Origin: Lutibacter sp.
GTDB taxonomy: Bacteria; Bacteroidota; Bacteroidia; Flavobacteriales; Flavobacteriaceae
Assembly: GCF_030692605.1 (NCBI RefSeq)
Contig: NZ_JAUYUD010000049.1
Coordinates: forward strand, 62,001 to 126,000
DNA: 64,000 bases
Direction: 5' to 3'
This document shows, in pieces, positions 25,883 through 33,376 of the stretch (its first letter is position 1; each line of letters opens with the position of its first letter). The translations under genes were made by a program, and so were the position numbers. Under the pieces are notes generated by a model. It ran no database searches, was not told the DNA's origin, and saw only the letters and a list, made by a program, of their open reading frames with translations.

Positions 25883-26474
25883 TTTAATAAAAATATTGAT
25901 TTAGTTGAATTCAAATATACATTAAACATGAAAAGACTTCAAATGAAATTTAGTATATCTCTAGTTCTTTTAAAATTTTTGCTATTATACTTGTATAGAA
26001 AGATGTAAATTACTCATTATTTCTGAAGGTGCATATGGATAGACAGTACACTATATTAAATTATTAGCCTATTTATTAGATTTTGGAAATATAAAATAAA
26101 CTCTAACAACAACGCTAAAAGGTTTTACAGTTGAGAATCTTAAGAAAGGACATCAACTACAAGAACTTGGAAAAAGAATTGGTAAAATGGTTATCCAATT
26201 TTAAAAATATAATTTAAAAAGTATTGCATTTTTAAGTTTAAATAACGCTATTTAATGATCTTATATTCTATAAATTACATAAATAAATTTACAGTTATTT
26301 TAAACTCTATTTAAATTTTTAAATGTTAAATTTTAAAAAAAAACAGACACTTATTATAACAACTGACGAAAGGAGGGAAGTGAAAGCAAAGCCTTGCGAT
26401 TTTTTAAAACAAATAAGAGTGTGTTAGTAAATTTGTGTGGAATGAATTAGTTCTTCCATTTATAAAATTAATAT
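25883..26474. other. Intergenic region with a decayed gene end
   Basis: About 590 bases with no intact gene. It includes the 3' remnant of an alcohol dehydrogenase (listed separately) and, at 26361-26404, a G-rich patch (acgaaaggagggaagtga, then gcaaagc) that stands out from the AT-rich background. The reverse complement of a related sequence is found near 34714-34731. Confidence 0.5.
26037..26204 (+). pseudogene. 3' remnant of a zinc-binding alcohol dehydrogenase / quinone reductase
   Basis: Read in the frame that ends at the TAA at 26202, the sequence gives KLLAYLLDFGNIK, an in-frame TAA at 26097, then TLTTTLKGFTVENLKKGHQ and a tail ending IGKMVIQF. This matches, from memory, the C-terminal end of Bacteroidota zinc-binding dehydrogenases (..GKIKTTLT..INAENLKKAH..GKIV). 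The internal stop and the absence of the rest of the gene show it is a relic. The upstream limit is approximate. Confidence 0.55.
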
Positions 26475-26488: not shown

Positions 26489-26932
26489 ATGCAAAAGCAC
26501 AATCACATAAAAGCACTGTTTTTTTTGAGCATTTTCAGTATATTTTTACTGCATCAAGTTGTTCCTCATTTGCATCATCATCACGAAGCTGAGCACATTC
26601 ATAAAGCTACTTTTCAAGTTGATAAACAAAACCACGATACCCATCATCACGAAAGTCCTAATAAAGAAAACTCTAAAAACGATTTATTTGATTTCTTTAT
26701 AGAGGTGCATGTTCATTCAATTTTTTCTAATGAAATTATTGTCAGACAAAAAGAAAATTTAAAGCAAACTATTGTTGAAAACAAGGTTTTCCAATCTGTT
26801 TTTTTAAAAAATATTGTTATTTATGATTATTTTAGAGATATTGTTAATCTCAAAATTTATCAACCTCCTAACAATTATTTTAACCCATATCTTTTATCAC
26901 TCGATTCACGAGGACCACCAACTTTAGGTTAA
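26489..26932 (+). CDS. Histidine-rich exported small protein, first gene of the metal-efflux cassette
   Basis: The 147-residue protein begins MQKHNHIKALFFLSIFSIF (hydrophobic signal or anchor, about residues 8-24) and then has HLHHHHEAEHIH, HDTHHHE and a second patch HVHS, a density of His typical of proteins that bind Cu, Zn, Co or Ni outside the cytoplasm. A longer reading frame starts at GTG 26435, upstream of the -7 box, so ATG 26489 is preferred. It lies 73 bases ahead of a TolC-type gene. Similar small proteins precede RND metal pumps in Bacteroidota, as far as I recall; a periplasmic metal-buffer role is inferred. Confidence 0.65.
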   Translation: MQKHNHIKALFFLSIFSIFLLHQVVPHLHHHHEAEHIHKATFQVDKQNHDTHHHESPNKENSKNDLFDFFIEVHVHSIFSNEIIVRQKENLKQTIVENKVFQSVFLKNIVIYDYFRDIVNLKIYQPPNNYFNPYLLSLDSRGPPTLG

Positions 26933-27005
26933 TCGTTTAGGAATACTTACCTCTTCGGCAGTAATCCTTTTTATAAATTTAGATTAAACCTAAAAATCAT
27001 AAAAA

Positions 27006-28187
27006 ATGAATAAACTAATAGTATTCGCAATTTGCGGATGCCTGTCATTTATAAGTGGTTTCTCTCAAACTAAAAATCTAGAGGAATTGCTTTATCAAAT
27101 AGAACAGAACAATACAGAGTTGAAAGGGTATCAATCCTTTGTTGAAAGTCAAGAACTCGAAAACAAGAGCGTAAATAATTTACCTAATCCAGAACTTTCT
27201 GGGTATTATTTGCACTATGGCGATCATACAAAAGATGCTTATATAGAATATCAAATATCACAATCTTTTGAGTTTCCTACGGTATATGTTGCTCGTAGTA
27301 AATGGAACGATTTAAAATTGATGGAAATCCAAACGGTCTATGCAAAAAAGAGACAAGAAGTGCTATTGAATGCAAAGGTGTTTCTTATAGAACTTTCATT
27401 CTTGAAAAAACAAAAAATTATTGAAACCGAAAGGAGAATTCTAAGTAAGCAGGTTTTCGACCAAATTCAAGAGCTTTTTAATAAAGAACAAGTTGGTATT
27501 TTAGATTTGAATAAAGCCAAAATTGCTTGGATTCAAGAGCAGTTTGTTGTTGATAAGGTTGAAAATGATATCCAAATCCTACTCTCGAAACTTAACAACT
27601 TAAATGGAGGAAAACCTCTTGATGAACTTTCAGAAACTATAACTTCAATAGAAATAACAAGTATAGAAATTCTTTGGCAAGAAAAAATAACTAGCGACCC
27701 TACATTACTAGAATTACATGCTAATGAAAGGGCTTCATTGCAAAAAGTGACATTGGAGAAAAACAAGGTACTTCCAAATCTGGCACTTGGTTACAACTAT
27801 CAGGGTGTAAATGGAGACAATTATTCAGGTTTTTATGGCGGACTTACTATTCCATTATGGAATAGTAAAAATAAAGTAAAAGCTGCGCAAGCGAACTATG
27901 AATATCAGCAATCTAATACACAAGTACTTACAACATCGCTTTACATGCAATTTCAGGAAATATTTATTCGCTATCAATTGATGTACTCTAAATACAAGGA
28001 GTATCAAAAAACGATGCGTAATTTAGAAAGTGAGAAATTACTTTTTAAAGCATATATGTTAGGCGAGTATTCGTTTATGGATTACTATGTAGAACTTCAG
28101 TTTTACCGAAATGCATTAGATAAAATGTTGCAACTAGAAAAAGAATTACAAATGCTTCAAGCACAATTACTAAGACATCAATTATAA
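27006..28187 (+). CDS. Outer-membrane efflux protein of the TolC/CusC family
   Basis: The 393-residue protein has a signal peptide ending near GFSQTKN (residues 1-21), and long alternating helices with the outer-membrane efflux protein repeats: NNLPNPELSGYYLHYG (about 58-73) and the second copy KVLPNLALGYNYQG (about 252-265). TolC-type trimers form the channel through the outer membrane and the periplasmic tunnel. Position ahead of CusB- and CusA-type genes shows it is the exit duct of the metal pump. Confidence 0.88.
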   Translation: MNKLIVFAICGCLSFISGFSQTKNLEELLYQIEQNNTELKGYQSFVESQELENKSVNNLPNPELSGYYLHYGDHTKDAYIEYQISQSFEFPTVYVARSKWNDLKLMEIQTVYAKKRQEVLLNAKVFLIELSFLKKQKIIETERRILSKQVFDQIQELFNKEQVGILDLNKAKIAWIQEQFVVDKVENDIQILLSKLNNLNGGKPLDELSETITSIEITSIEILWQEKITSDPTLLELHANERASLQKVTLEKNKVLPNLALGYNYQGVNGDNYSGFYGGLTIPLWNSKNKVKAAQANYEYQQSNTQVLTTSLYMQFQEIFIRYQLMYSKYKEYQKTMRNLESEKLLFKAYMLGEYSFMDYYVELQFYRNALDKMLQLEKELQMLQAQLLRHQL

Positions 28188-28205
28188 ATTTTAAAACATA
28201 CAATT

Positions 28206-28787
28206 ATGAAATCGAAGATTCACGAATACCAAAACAAATATTTAACCATGAGTAAAATTTCAAAAATAATATTCGCACTAGCTATAGGTTCAATAGTTTC
28301 ATTTACCTCTTGTGATGATAAAAAAGCAAAGGCAGAAGCGGCAAACGAACTTGAACAAAATAAAGATGCTAATAACATTCAAGATAAGGTTATTGAACAA
28401 GAGGAGTTTAATGTGAATGGAGCTTCAGAAAACAAGGAGGAAAATAGTGCATCAAACGAACAAAGCAATGTTGCAACAATAATCGTTAAAGCGAATAAAG
28501 CAATTGAGTACAAATTTAAGATTAATCAATATGATAAACTAACCTATGAATGGAAGGCTGATGCTCCTTTACATTATGATTTTCACGGTGATCCAGAAGC
28601 TAAACAAGACTATCAAGAAGGATATTTTGAAAGTTATGCTATTGGAAATTCAGATTTCGCAAAAGGTAAAGTAACAATACCATATAAAGGATCTCATGGT
28701 TGGTATTGGAAGAATGAAAGTGAGAAGGACATTACAATTACTTTATCGACTAAAGGTAAGTATCACATTGTTGGATTAAAGAAATAA
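28206..28787 (+). CDS. Lipoprotein with GOLD-like domain, metal-efflux accessory
   Basis: The 193-residue protein starts MKSKIHEYQNKYLTMSKISK; an internal ATG at 28248 gives a better lipoprotein signal (ALAIGSIVSFTSC, lipid Cys around residue 36), so the start could be there. A charged linker (about 40-95) leads to a C-terminal beta domain (about 100-193) with the pattern YEWKADAPLHYDFHGDP and GSHGWYWKNES, which resembles the extracytoplasmic domain of 'transmembrane anchor' proteins found beside RND metal-efflux genes in Proteobacteria. It lies between the TolC-type and CusB-type genes, so a link to metal efflux is likely; the exact role is unknown. Confidence 0.65.
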   Translation: MKSKIHEYQNKYLTMSKISKIIFALAIGSIVSFTSCDDKKAKAEAANELEQNKDANNIQDKVIEQEEFNVNGASENKEENSASNEQSNVATIIVKANKAIEYKFKINQYDKLTYEWKADAPLHYDFHGDPEAKQDYQEGYFESYAIGNSDFAKGKVTIPYKGSHGWYWKNESEKDITITLSTKGKYHIVGLKK

Positions 28788-28796
28788 ATTATTATT

Positions 28797-30281
28797 ATGA
28801 AATATATATATCTATTATTTGCAATGTTGCTGTTGTCTTGTAACGGTAAAGAAAATATAAAAACCGAACTGCAAAACGAGTTAATTCCGCGAAAAGATAT
28901 GACGCTTTGGACCGACAAAATAGAACTGTTTGTTGAATTTCCAGTATTAGTTGTAGGTAATTCAAGTCGTTTTGCAGCTCATTTTACAGTATTAGAAGGG
29001 CATCAACCTGTAAAAGAAGGTTCTGTAACTGTGAGTTTAATTAAAGGCAATAAAGGACTTCGCAATACAGTAGAATTTCCTTCTTCTCCTGGTATATTTT
29101 CTCCAACAATACAACCTATAGAAGCAGGTAATTATCAATTGGTTTTTGAGATTACTACCCCAATATTTAGTGATAAAATAATTGTTCATGACATTATTGT
29201 TTATCCAACCATAGAAGCTGCTATTAGTGCTTTAGGTGATGCCACTGACGAAGGAGGTATATCATTTTTAAAAGAACAAGCTTGGAAAATTGAATTTCAG
29301 ACAACTCCAGTAGTTTCTGGAAAAATTTATGATGTTATTACTACTTCGGGCGTTTGGATGCCATCACCAGGGTCGGTAAAAACATTGGTTGCACAGGGTA
29401 ATGGTGTTGTAGATTTTGCAATAACAAACCTTACTGAAGGTATGGAAGTTAAACAAGGACAGTTATTAATGAATTTAAGCAGTAAAGGATTGTCTTCAAA
29501 TAACCTAAATACAGAAATTGCTAATGCGAAAACCAATTTTGAACAGGCAAAGTCCGAATATAATCGTAAAAAAGAATTATACGAATCTAAAATTATTCCG
29601 AAATCTGAATTTGAAAAAGTAGAAAGGAATTATACTATTGCAAAGTCCAATTATCAAACGTTATCACAAGGATTTTCAGGAGGAAACAAGCAAGTGAGAG
29701 CTCCTTTTAATGGTTTTATTACCTCCATAAATGTTGCAAATGGCAATTATGTTGAACAAGGTATTACTTTGGTTACCGTAGGAACCCAAAAATCAAGAGT
29801 ATTACAATCTCAAGTTGCACCAGCTTACGGTTTAACAATGGAGAATGTACACGGTATTTGGTTTCAAGATAAAGATAATCAGTGGGTTAATATAGCGTCT
29901 ACTGGAGGTTCCATACTTTCAATAGGTAAGGAAGTTAAAAGTAATAAACCATTAATCTCCTTATATGCACAAGTAAATGAAGCGGTTGATTTGCCCGAAG
30001 GAAGTATTACTCAGGTTCAAATTGCTTGGGGTAATGCCAACCAAAAAGTATTAATACCTGTTAATGCTTTGTTAGAAGACTACGGAAGCTACTCTGTTAT
30101 TGTTCAACTTTCAGGAGAAAGTTTTGAAAGACGACCTGTAAAAATTGGCAAGCGTAATGGTGAAAATGTAGAAATTGAAACAGGATTAAAAGTTGGAGAA
30201 GTGGTAGTTACAAAAGGAGCCTATCAGGTTAAAATGGCTTCAATGTCTGGTACTACACCTGCTCACGGTCACGCACATTAA
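28797..30281 (+). CDS. RND efflux periplasmic adaptor, CusB/CzcB type
   Basis: The 494-residue lipoprotein (LLLSCNG, lipid Cys at residue 15) carries an N-terminal beta domain (about 30-140), a barrel-sandwich segment (VAQGNGVVDFAI.. and VRAPFNGFITSINVANGNYVEQG, about 200-340), a coiled-coil hairpin between them (about 240-290), and the beta-barrel and proximal domains to the end. The C-terminus ends in HGHAH, which may bind metal. Adaptors of this group link the CusA pump to the outer-membrane channel. The extra domain at the N-terminus is longer than in E. coli CusB. Confidence 0.88.
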   Translation: MKYIYLLFAMLLLSCNGKENIKTELQNELIPRKDMTLWTDKIELFVEFPVLVVGNSSRFAAHFTVLEGHQPVKEGSVTVSLIKGNKGLRNTVEFPSSPGIFSPTIQPIEAGNYQLVFEITTPIFSDKIIVHDIIVYPTIEAAISALGDATDEGGISFLKEQAWKIEFQTTPVVSGKIYDVITTSGVWMPSPGSVKTLVAQGNGVVDFAITNLTEGMEVKQGQLLMNLSSKGLSSNNLNTEIANAKTNFEQAKSEYNRKKELYESKIIPKSEFEKVERNYTIAKSNYQTLSQGFSGGNKQVRAPFNGFITSINVANGNYVEQGITLVTVGTQKSRVLQSQVAPAYGLTMENVHGIWFQDKDNQWVNIASTGGSILSIGKEVKSNKPLISLYAQVNEAVDLPEGSITQVQIAWGNANQKVLIPVNALLEDYGSYSVIVQLSGESFERRPVKIGKRNGENVEIETGLKVGEVVVTKGAYQVKMASMSGTTPAHGHAH

Positions 30282-30292
30282 AAAAGAAGAAA

Positions 30293-33200
30293 ATGTTAAA
30301 CAAAATATTATCAATTTCACTTCAAAACAGATTATTCATTTTATTGATTGCTGTTGCATTAAGTGTGCTGGGTATTTATTATGCCCGAACAATGAATGTA
30401 GATGTGTTTCCAGACCTTACGGCACCAACGGTAACCATTCTTACAGAAGCACATGGAATGGAATCTGAAGAAGTAGAAAAATTAGTGACCTATCAATTAG
30501 AAACTGCATTAAATGGCTCGCCCAATGTAAGAAGAATTCGTTCTTCTTCAGCTGCAGGAATTTCAATAGTTTGGGTAGAATTTGATTGGGGTACAGATAT
30601 TTACCGTGCCCGACAAATTGTAAATGAACGTATTCCAATGGTTCGTGAAAACTTACCAGATGGAATAACAGCGCCAACAATGGCGCCTATATCTTCTATA
30701 ATGGGAGAAATTATGTTATTGGGTGTTACTTCAGATAGTTTATCGGCAATGGAACTAAGAACATTATCCGATTGGACAATTAGACCTCGAATTAAAGCTA
30801 TTGGAGGGATTGCAAACGTAGTTGTTATTGGAGGTGATTATAAACAATATCAAGTGTTGGCCAATCCTGAAAAGATGAAACATTACAATGTAAGCCTTCA
30901 AGAATTAGTTAAACACGTAAAAGAAGCCAATATCAATGTTCCTGGCGGAATTATAAATCAATATGGTAACGAATATATTATAAAAGGAAGTGGTAGAGCC
31001 TATGCTTTGGAAGATTTACAGGAAGCGGTTTTAAAGCAAGTAAACGGACAAACCATAAAAATAAAAGATGTTGCAACGGTACAAATAGGAGCCGCTGATA
31101 AAATAGGCGATGGATCGTTAAATGGAACCCCCGCGATTATTTTAACAATCTCAAAACAACCCGATGTAAATACGTTGGAGTTAACTCAACGTTTGGATGA
31201 AGCTATCGCAGATTTACAAAAAACCTTGCCTCAAGGGGTGAATATTAAAAACCATATTTTTAGACAATCTGATTTTATTGAGGCTTCCATAAGTAATTTG
31301 AATCAAACCTTGTTGGAAGGAGCCTTTTTTGTGCTTGTTGTTTTATTCATTTTCTTAATGAATTGGAGAACAACTGTTATTTCATTATTGGCAATTCCTT
31401 TATCGTTATTGGTTTCAATCATCATATTAAAATGGTTGGGATATACTATTAATACAATGAGTTTAGGAGGTATGGCAATTGCTATTGGGGCTTTAGTGGA
31501 TGATGCTATTATTGATGTAGAAAACGTTTATAAGCGACTTCGTGAAAATGTTAAAAAACCAATTAGCGAAAGGCAAACAACCTTAACAGTTGTTAGAGAT
31601 GCTTCTTTAGAAATACGAAGTTCTATAATAATTGCAACGTTAATTATTATAGTTTCATTTATTCCTTTGTTCTTTTTGGGTGGAATGGAAGGACGTTTGT
31701 TACAGCCTTTAGGAATTGCATTTGTAACATCGGTTTTAACTTCATTAATTGTAGCAGTTACCGTAACACCTATTTTATGTTCGTATTTATTAGGTAACGA
31801 AAAACGTTTAAACAAAAGGGTAGAGGGTACACGTGTAGAGCGTTGGTTGCAAAAACAATATGGTACTATTTTACAACGATCCCTAAAAGTACCGAAAACC
31901 GTAATTGGAACAACAATCATAGCTTTTATTATTAGTATAGTGGTCTTAAGTCAATTAGGAAGAAGTTTTTTACCTGAATTTAATGAAGGTTCGTTGGTAC
32001 TTAGTGTTGTTGGTCCTCCGGGAATGTCGTTAGAAGAAAGCAATAAAACCGGAAAATTGATTGAGCAAATTTTATTAGACTTACCAGAAGTTGAAGTTGT
32101 TACAAGAAGACAAGGTAGAGCAGAGCTTGATGAACATGCACAAGGTGTTAATGCATCCGAAATGGATATTCCTTTTGTACTTACAAATAAAACCAAAGAA
32201 GAATTTTTTGAGGAAGTACGTACTAAATTGAGTATTGCACCAGGTGTAAATATTACCTTAGGTCAACCCATTGCACACCGTATAGACCATATGTTGTCTG
32301 GAACAAGAGCAAATATTGCCATTAAAATATTTGGTTCAGATTTACAAGAACTATTTGAAGTTGGGAAAAGTGTAGAGGATAACATTAGAAACATTGAAGG
32401 ATTGGCAGATGTTGCTGTGGATCAACAAATTGAAGTTCCTCAAATACGAATTAAACCAAAGCGACAAATTTTAAGTGCTTACGGAATGACTGTTAGCGAT
32501 TTAATGGAGCAAGTTGATATTGCTTTTGCGGGGGAAGAAGCAGGTGAAATTTATGAAGGTCAACAATATTTTGATTTGGTAGTACGCTACGAAAAACCAT
32601 TTAGAAATAATATTGAAAACATTGGTAATACCTTAATAAGTCTTCCTAATGGCGGGCAAACCATATTAGGAGAATTGGCAATCATTCAATCGGTGAGTAG
32701 TCCAAATTCTATTAATCGTGAAGATGTTCAACGAAAAATAGTGGTTGCAGCTAATGTTCAAGGTAGAGATTTACGAGGTGCGGTTAAAGAAATTAAGGAC
32801 GTTATAGCTACTAATGTGAAACTTCCAGAAGGGTATAGAGTGCAATATGATGGGCAATTTGAAAGCGAAGCAAAAGCATCTCAATTACTTTTAGTAACCG
32901 CTGTTGTAGCAATTTGTATTATATTTCTTTTGCTATATTACGAGTTTAATGATATAAAGTTGGCTTTTGTAGTACTTATAAATTTACCATTGGCATTAAT
33001 TGGTGGAATTTTAATTGTATACTTTACTTCTGGAATTATTAGTATTGCTGCAACAATTGGTTTTATTAGCTTATTTGGTATTGCAACACGAAATGGGATA
33101 TTACTAGTATCTAGATATGAGGATTTACGAAAAGAAGGATTTAATGGGTATGAGCTCATTAAAAAAGGTGCTTTAGACAGATTAAATCCAATTTTAATGA

Positions 33201-33376
33201 CAGCTTTTACAACAGGTTTAGCATTAATTCCGTTGGCCTTAAAAGGTGACGAACCGGGTAGTGAAATTCAAAGCCCAATGGCCGTAGTTATTTTAGGCGG
33301 CTTGCTAACGGCAACTGTTTTAAATCTAGTAGTTATTCCTTGTGTATATCAATTGGTTATATCAAAAAAAACGTAA
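30293..33376 (+). CDS. RND heavy-metal efflux pump, CusA/CzcA type
   Basis: The 1027-residue inner-membrane pump has the RND layout: an N-terminal helix (NRLFILLIAVALSVLG), two large periplasmic loops (about residues 35-335 and 560-860), and two clusters of helices. The transmembrane proton-relay region has GALVDDAIIDVENVYKRL (about 398-415), in which Asp-Asp and Glu replace the Cus-type MIEN pattern; substrate specificity (Cu/Ag or Zn/Co/Cd) therefore cannot be set by this motif alone. The early sequence NVDVFPDLTAPTVTILTEA is diagnostic of heavy-metal RND pumps. It is the last gene of the cassette and is followed by a terminator. Confidence 0.9.
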   Translation: MLNKILSISLQNRLFILLIAVALSVLGIYYARTMNVDVFPDLTAPTVTILTEAHGMESEEVEKLVTYQLETALNGSPNVRRIRSSSAAGISIVWVEFDWGTDIYRARQIVNERIPMVRENLPDGITAPTMAPISSIMGEIMLLGVTSDSLSAMELRTLSDWTIRPRIKAIGGIANVVVIGGDYKQYQVLANPEKMKHYNVSLQELVKHVKEANINVPGGIINQYGNEYIIKGSGRAYALEDLQEAVLKQVNGQTIKIKDVATVQIGAADKIGDGSLNGTPAIILTISKQPDVNTLELTQRLDEAIADLQKTLPQGVNIKNHIFRQSDFIEASISNLNQTLLEGAFFVLVVLFIFLMNWRTTVISLLAIPLSLLVSIIILKWLGYTINTMSLGGMAIAIGALVDDAIIDVENVYKRLRENVKKPISERQTTLTVVRDASLEIRSSIIIATLIIIVSFIPLFFLGGMEGRLLQPLGIAFVTSVLTSLIVAVTVTPILCSYLLGNEKRLNKRVEGTRVERWLQKQYGTILQRSLKVPKTVIGTTIIAFIISIVVLSQLGRSFLPEFNEGSLVLSVVGPPGMSLEESNKTGKLIEQILLDLPEVEVVTRRQGRAELDEHAQGVNASEMDIPFVLTNKTKEEFFEEVRTKLSIAPGVNITLGQPIAHRIDHMLSGTRANIAIKIFGSDLQELFEVGKSVEDNIRNIEGLADVAVDQQIEVPQIRIKPKRQILSAYGMTVSDLMEQVDIAFAGEEAGEIYEGQQYFDLVVRYEKPFRNNIENIGNTLISLPNGGQTILGELAIIQSVSSPNSINREDVQRKIVVAANVQGRDLRGAVKEIKDVIATNVKLPEGYRVQYDGQFESEAKASQLLLVTAVVAICIIFLLLYYEFNDIKLAFVVLINLPLALIGGILIVYFTSGIISIAATIGFISLFGIATRNGILLVSRYEDLRKEGFNGYELIKKGALDRLNPILMTAFTTGLALIPLALKGDEPGSEIQSPMAVVILGGLLTATVLNLVVIPCVYQLVISKKT

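Follow-up and report, generated by a model that had tools for sequence, protein, structure and literature searches.

A five-gene heavy-metal RND operon in Lutibacter with a His-rich exported protein and an extra lipoprotein that ends in a predicted GOLD domain

Pumps of the heavy-metal efflux resistance-nodulation-division (HME-RND) type draw metal from the periplasm. To our knowledge, few carriers that load these pumps are known apart from CusF/SilF and SilE; CusF and SilF are soluble OB-fold carriers of Cu(I)/Ag(I). In CusCFBA and SilCFBA, a tripartite HME-RND pump is accompanied by the small periplasmic metal protein CusF, encoded between the C and B genes (excerpts of PMC7060636). The Sil system also has a disordered metal sponge, SilE, and CusF and SilE/SilF serve as the Cu and Ag models for periplasmic metal handling (excerpts of PMC10656224). 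The gene order I-C-extra-B-A is already described in Cupriavidus, which belongs to another phylum: nieIC-cep-nieBA of Cupriavidus neocaledonicus STM 6070, a putative nickel HME-RND system (HME5/'class 6'), comprises a small first gene followed by genes for a TolC-type protein, an extra exported protein, an adaptor, and a pump (PMC7060636). Here, we describe an operon sharing these elements in Lutibacter sp. (Bacteroidota, Flavobacteriaceae), located at positions 26489‒33376 of a 64,000-nucleotide stretch of contig NZ_JAUYUD010000049.1 (assembly GCF_030692605.1; hereafter the window).

The operon consists of five co-directional open reading frames (ORFs) on the + strand with intergenic gaps of 9 to 73 bases, in agreement with a sequence-only reading that had proposed a five-gene cassette here. 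The first gene (26489‒26932) encodes a small His-rich exported protein of 147 residues (hereafter HisR) from the ATG at 26489, the start given by the ORF caller being a GTG at 26435. It is followed by the genes for a TolC-family outer-membrane channel (27006‒28187, 393 residues), a lipoprotein (28206‒28787, 193 residues; hereafter the slot lipoprotein), a CusB/CzcB-type adaptor with its own lipobox, LLSC (28797‒30281, 494 residues), and a CusA/CzcA-family HME-RND pump (30293‒33376, 1027 residues). The TolC, CusB, and CusA parts, which had been called standard, all exceed their family cut-offs: the channel matches Pfam OEP (66.8 bits, cut-off 22), the adaptor TIGR01730 (127.2 bits, cut-off 94.9), and the whole pump the CusA/CzcA model TIGR00914 (833.5 bits, curated cut-off 701.45). 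Judged by its residues, however, the pump does not belong to the monovalent Cus type. In Pfam and NCBIfam, neither HisR nor the slot lipoprotein matched any family above cut-off. A periplasmic metal-trapping and handover system had also been called undescribed in E. coli Cus, yet Cus has the small metal carrier CusF in the equivalent gene slot. The two systems differ in what fills the slot, which is here a lipoprotein with a predicted GOLD or a His-rich end and not a CusF-type OB-fold protein, and in the replacement of the CusA Met triad.

The operon and the joint conservation of its genes are established. A search of genome_contigs with the window lipoprotein gave 66 loci, whose neighborhoods conserve the order HisR-TolC-slot lipoprotein-adaptor-pump with the slot gene in different forms. 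Since these loci were found through the lipoprotein itself, the survey was repeated with the adaptor as bait. Within the window's family, 26 of 299 genomes have the operon (E ≤ 1e-60), at 28 places in all, 27 of which are readable, the other one (L095) starting at a contig edge. A slot lipoprotein with a QEEF-type motif is present in 25 of these 27 places (ELEEF in L107), and in the remaining two (L105, L106) a HisR-like protein stands directly before the adaptor instead. A His-rich tail such as THKHDDGAEHHDH closes 19 of these 25 proteins, a GOLD domain four (window, L082, L085, and L104), and another domain one, and the last is cut short; the slot proteins of L104 and L085 are identical to those of L014 (Sediminicola luteus) and L011 (Flavobacteriales), respectively. 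At the class level, the adaptor was found in 17 of 295 genomes (E ≤ 1e-50). Apart from the window, 11 of the 16 places have a QEEF-type slot protein (counting two contig-edge fragments and the variants QEEY, QEDF, and QETF), none has GOLD, and in the other five a HisR-like protein adjoins the adaptor. By these adaptor-bait counts, this pump normally comes with the extra lipoprotein, GOLD being the less common form. The extra lipoprotein of the sequence-only reading is therefore real, but its GOLD end is the less usual state of a protein that mostly carries a His tail. The GOLD form was found in two of 395 genomes of a phylum sample (own genome included), and a full-length lipoprotein match in one of 36 congeners.

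Either a His tail or a GOLD domain is present at the same place of an otherwise constant protein. In an alignment of 20 slot proteins of both kinds (A5), the lipobox Cys is invariant and the QEEF-type motif is shared; the usual layout is a lipobox, mostly a His-rich stretch, a QEEFxV-type motif, and then the ending. The window protein has the lipobox SFTSC (Cys codon 28311‒28313) and is predicted from its signal peptide and lipobox Cys to be a bacterial lipoprotein, in line with the earlier reading of a lipoprotein between the TolC and CusB genes. Its QEEFNV motif (28398‒28415), a proposed docking peptide, is kept in both His-tail and GOLD forms, the latter retaining the lipobox and QEEF or QEQF. 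The His-rich stretch (H-G-H-x-H or HGHEHDADGNH type) occurs in five of the eight GOLD forms of A5, the others being the window, L009, and L010. GOLD looks like a replacement for the metal-binding tail on a constant lipoprotein slot.

Other forms of the slot gene were also seen. In L100 (985‒1500), the slot lipoprotein ends in a domain of a third kind, about 80 residues long and beta-rich by eye. To the eye it resembles an OB fold; searching its sequence against the PDB yielded nothing usable, and we do not claim kinship with OB/CusF proteins. The slot lipoprotein of L089 (1244‒1426) ends at 60 residues just past QEEF, and the remaining operon is intact in the stretch read. In the Flavivirga locus L012 (6881‒7333), a GOLD lipoprotein stands alone, the 14 kb read around it containing neither a TolC nor an adaptor or pump of this type; a CusA-like protein in its neighborhood is only 24% identical.

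The C-terminal domain of the window lipoprotein (28461‒28784) is predicted with high confidence to have the GOLD fold. AlphaFold2, run on an alignment of 24 sequences including the window (A2), gave an all-beta model of 108 residues (mean pLDDT 95.6, pTM 0.85). In a Foldseek search of the PDB, human TMED1 GOLD (7rrm) ranks first (E 3.2e-5), and of the 11 rows that reach E ≤ 0.001, nine are GOLD or SEC14-like chains, the other two being a lysozyme inhibitor (PliG) and a designed beta protein. VIA-align gave Z 12.8 to p24beta1 (86 residues, 1.5 Å, 8% identity) and 12.7 and 12.2 to two further p24 GOLD domains, with ACBD3 and SEC14-like rows at Z 9.7 to 10.7 overlapping the range in which non-GOLD rows begin (from Z 10.4 downward). 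The structure prediction agrees with the earlier proposal of a GOLD-like domain. The eukaryotic p24/TMED, SEC14L, and ACBD3 domains share the predicted fold; they differ in being parts of secretory-pathway or lipid proteins, with no sequence kinship above the Pfam cut-off. Among 25 members searched with the GOLD sequence models of Pfam, one matches PF25099 at E 0.015, far from significant, and no named family for the domain came out of Pfam, NCBIfam, or a PDB profile search. A precedent for such a domain on a membrane transporter is the GOLD-like domain proposed in Oca2 (excerpts of PMC10372470).

The motifs HYDFHGDP and GSHGWYWKNE, quoted in the sequence-only reading, are both present in the window lipoprotein. 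An alignment of 25 sequences from two phyla, including the window (A3), has 13 invariant columns, among them Asp125, His127, His164, Trp166, Trp168, and Asn170 (numbering of the 193-residue lipoprotein); in L080, which lies outside A3, Phe replaces Trp168.

The kinship with the 'transmembrane anchor' proteins of Proteobacteria, also part of the earlier reading, is borne out by a match of the window domain to the protein so annotated in CP075772 (38.0% identity, E 1e-12), which indicates homology. A tblastn search with the domain found 343 plasmid records, 202 of them from Klebsiella or Enterobacter. Among the plasmid matches listed, those above 35% identity have E values of 1e-12 to 1e-29, and the best is from Glaciecola (53.3% identical, E 1e-29). 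Three of the 20 plasmid records listed are annotated 'transmembrane anchor protein', and 'transmembrane anchor' and hypothetical are the only labels in the 20. In 19 of 19 readable proteobacterial loci, 13 from the lipoprotein search and six picked from the plasmid list (L039 and L041 left out), the gene upstream of the GOLD gene is HupE/UreJ. Such pairs, found in Pseudomonas, Shewanella, Rhizobium, and enterobacterial plasmids, have metal genes around them in the six plasmid loci read: the HupE-GOLD pair lies behind a CzcA-type pump in three (L073, L074, L077), near ncr nickel genes on an E. coli plasmid (L076), and near a metal-sensing repressor and chromate genes in two (L075, L078). The difference lies in the anchor and the partner. 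In the pairs, the domain is on a transmembrane helix beside HupE, whereas the window protein has a lipid anchor within a C-x-B-A operon lacking HupE; in alignment A1, it has the lipobox in place of the N-terminal transmembrane helix and PAEYGIDP of the anchor proteins. No HupE was found near the window-type GOLD genes in the flanks read of L007‒L014, and the one HupE match of the window's own genome sits on another contig than the operon. L019 (3211‒4344) is a HupE-GOLD fusion (PF13795, 160.8 bits), and L032 (7‒525) looks like such a fusion clipped by the contig start.

In a midpoint-rooted domain tree, from which L037 was left out for its long branch, nine of the ten Bacteroidota lipoprotein domains fall in a branch (support 93/89) that also contains gammaproteobacterial rows, and the window belongs to a set of eight (100/99). 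The ten do not form one clade, L014 lying outside, yet a single clade is not rejected (p-AU 0.379). With moderate support, the sequences fit a transfer of the domain followed by its fusion to a pre-existing slot lipoprotein. The Bacteroidota locus L080 (1‒3156) carries a CusA gene, a membrane-anchored GOLD protein, HupE (by eye), and a separate His-rich lipoprotein, and is a plausible intermediate before that fusion.

HisR contains 16 His among its 147 residues, as the description of a small His-rich exported protein had implied. All 17 loci with a slot gene and 540 or more bases in front of TolC have it, 59‒95 bases ahead of the TolC gene; eight are of the GOLD type and nine of the short type, HisR is split in two ORFs in L026, and L035 and L036 are near-copies. 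It is also present in L021, where the slot gene is broken at the contig end. The expectation that the genes at 26489 and 28206 would be conserved beside RND pumps is confirmed by these loci for HisR and by the adaptor-bait survey for the slot lipoprotein. In an alignment of 15 HisR sequences (A4), nine His and a C-terminal R-PP, which reads RGPP in the window, are invariant. In the AlphaFold model (mean pLDDT 52), only the hydrophobic N-terminal helix (residues 3‒23) is credible, the rest being of low confidence or disordered. HisR resembles DUF6769 (PF20558), a family whose members are likewise small and exported and carry PHHHH and, at the C-terminus, R(A/G)PP, and membership is not supported: the window protein scores 11 bits against a cut-off of 27. 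Eight of the 15 A4 members match DUF6769 (best E 4e-4), and of ten further HisR-like proteins two are above the cut-off (L142, L145), two are below, and six have no match. In the Parabacteroides locus L145, an annotated DUF6769 gene lies directly upstream of the adaptor gene of a 54%-identical pump, and a profile comparison between HisR and L145 was not convincing.

The solved structure that the pump matches with the highest score is ZneA, followed by CusA. At the places of the CusA Met triad, which we take to be M573, M623, and M672 of E. coli CusA, the pairwise alignment gives Ser, Ala, and His; one Met lies three residues from the second place, where a small alignment shift is possible. By these residues, the pump is not of the Cus/Sil monovalent type (HME4). 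It carries the motifs HAQGVN (32135‒32152) and HRIDH (32276‒32290), found by motif scan. Among 17 scanned pumps of this type, HRIDH is present in all and HAQGVN in 16 (the pattern missed it in L011), and neither is found in five scanned proteobacterial pumps of another type. The Salinibacter pump has HAQGAN and HRIDH, and its slot encodes a His-rich lipoprotein without QEEF; the Parabacteroides pump has HALGVN and no HRxDH by the pattern used. The adaptor ends in HGHAH (30264‒30278), and an H-x-H end is found in 57 of 57 complete adaptor ORFs, near-duplicate rows included. The window motifs are comparable to HAEGVH and HRLDH of NieA, whose operon is proposed to export nickel, itself a prediction (PMC7060636); the likeness to the nie system is one of gene order and pump motifs. 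In Sphingobium, a gene for HupE/UreJ that forms a cluster with RND and NreB genes is up-regulated on nickel (excerpts of PMC5557971). The pump probably exports a divalent metal. The Ni/Co type is favored because of the NieA-like motifs, the gene order, and the nickel response of the Sphingobium HupE cluster; Zn or Cd is possible.

From these features, we infer metal binding, docking, handover, and the choice of metal as follows. HisR, mostly disordered and rich in His, would soak up free periplasmic metal in the manner of the silver sponge SilE. The slot lipoprotein would also bind periplasmic metal, through its His-rich or GOLD end, and would be tethered to a membrane by its lipid anchor and docked to the pump complex by QEEFxV. 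It may hand the metal to the HGHAH tail of the adaptor or straight to the periplasmic site of the pump, which would expel it through TolC. In the window operon, the GOLD end carries Asp125, His127, and His164 as candidate metal ligands. That the operon encodes a heavy-metal RND pump for a divalent metal, likely of the Ni/Co type, with two envelope accessory proteins that gather periplasmic metal for it, has in our judgment about an even chance of being right. More tentatively, and with more doubt than belief, we consider that GOLD may be a bacterial periplasmic metal-binding module with an invariant Asp/His/His site, serving HupE permeases and HME-RND pumps alike and able to replace the His tail on the same docking lipoprotein.

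Several observations weigh against metal gathering by the two accessory proteins. We know of no metal role for GOLD domains. Their functions are called largely unknown (excerpts of PMC10372470). A PDB profile search found no solved relative of the lipoprotein domain from which a metal site could be read, and since the window lipoprotein lacks the His-rich stretch, trapping there would depend on the GOLD domain alone. The H-x-H tail is not specific to handover from the lipoprotein, because operons that lack the slot gene have it too (L105, L106, L137, L139‒L142), as do Proteobacteria (L074). A Magnetospirillum operon has a 48%-identical pump with the motifs HALGIH and HRIDH but no gene in the slot, and L004 has no HisR match in the 311 bases available before TolC. 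As for the metal, HAQGVN/HRIDH of the window keeps three His, with Asn at the place of the second His of NieA HAEGVH.

Eukaryotic GOLD domains are regarded as interaction and trafficking modules. The lipoprotein could accordingly be an assembly or gating factor, whose GOLD domain joins TolC, the adaptor, and the pump (HupE in Proteobacteria) by protein-protein contacts instead of carrying metal. The link of GOLD to trafficking and its largely unknown function (excerpts of PMC10372470), the retention of the QEEF-type motif whatever ending comes after it, and invariant Trp, Asn, and Gly residues that could mediate binding are all consistent with such a factor. On the other hand, most operons end the lipoprotein in a bare His tail, suggesting metal over protein contact, and all 25 sequences of A3, drawn from two phyla, share two His and one Asp without exception; we consider an assembly factor unlikely, although it survives best among the alternatives. 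A sensory role for HisR, the lipoprotein, or both, in which they would control expression or pump activity in a CzcI-like manner, seems somewhat harder still to sustain. HisR is the first gene of the operon like nieI and czcI, CzcI being a regulator of czcCBA (excerpts of PMC7060636), and its single membrane helix and conserved C-terminal RGPP could be read by a partner. However, a Pfam scan of the nine neighboring ORFs found no sigma, anti-sigma, or two-component gene, and the sole regulator among them is AraC-like and on the opposite strand (35130‒35936). It is improbable that GOLD rides along as a passenger, fused neutrally and carried by a mobile operon, and adds nothing to the function of the His tail: its uncommon and patchy occurrence (four of 25 slot genes, and the phylum and congener counts given above) and a transposase remnant 4 kb upstream would suit it, but the domain is 81% identical between the window and L010, held as tightly as the pump (77%) and above the adaptor (59%) and TolC protein (52%), and its invariant residues are retained across phyla.

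If the slot lipoprotein does load the pump, Bacteroidota offer a natural set in which one docking peptide is combined with varied metal-presenting ends (His tail, GOLD, and a third domain), so that the loading step could be tested directly by exchanging these ends. Such loading would also give the GOLD fold, known from Golgi cargo and lipid traffic, a bacterial function, and a role to the gene family on the 343 plasmid records. Searches of an open-access library turned up no title or abstract on the slot lipoprotein or on a GOLD domain tied to metal in bacteria.

The start of the slot lipoprotein gene is a separate element. The gene opens with ATGAAATCGAAGATTCACGAATACCAAAACAAAT, and a second start at 28248 reads ATGAGTAAA; positions 28206‒28256 form a nearly invariant element of about 48 nucleotides, ATGAAATCGAAGATTCACGAATACCAAAACAAAT...ATGAGTAAA, in which the leader ahead of the second Met spans 28206‒28247 (+ strand). 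The leader, the first 14 codons, is missing from all six GOLD-type orthologues checked (L007‒L011, L014), and the true start of the lipoprotein is more likely the second Met. We had considered the first residues as a conserved protein domain and rejected this, as they represent a DNA-level element common to unrelated genes. The window's own genome has one copy. A DNA search allowing up to three mismatches found 18 copies in 17 of the 299 family genomes and none with a reversed control, and all 18 lie directly after an ATG. Over all loci (L042‒L072, L109‒L126, and the window), 48 of 48 distinct contexts follow an ATG, a position that partly reflects selection, because most contexts came through a protein search requiring the peptide, while the 18 from the DNA search did not. 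The exact 31-base core is present in 31 of the 48 contexts, and ATGAGTAA lies downstream in 41. The element precedes at least eight unrelated Flavobacteriia proteins: the slot lipoprotein, a 204‒210-residue protein without a Pfam match, DUF6876, glyoxalase, SnoaL, DUF2147, methyltransferase, and RadC. An exact 22-base core had no match in viral_contigs. The simplest guess is a portable cassette that serves as a translation start or leader. In L115 and L120, the leader frame stops after nine codons (MKSKIHEYL), with the second ATGAGTAAA start next, which suggests a leader-peptide role for these copies.

The surroundings of the operon comprise a sortilin-like protein and a degraded DDE transposase upstream, and an SPFH-domain protein, the AraC-type regulator, and a DUF5916 protein downstream. 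The transposase remnant (21701‒22465) is 254 residues long and matches the domain end only. In Lacinutrix neustonica (L026, 5288‒11899), the same operon is fragmented, with the pump in several ORFs besides the split HisR, by either decay or a sequencing artefact.

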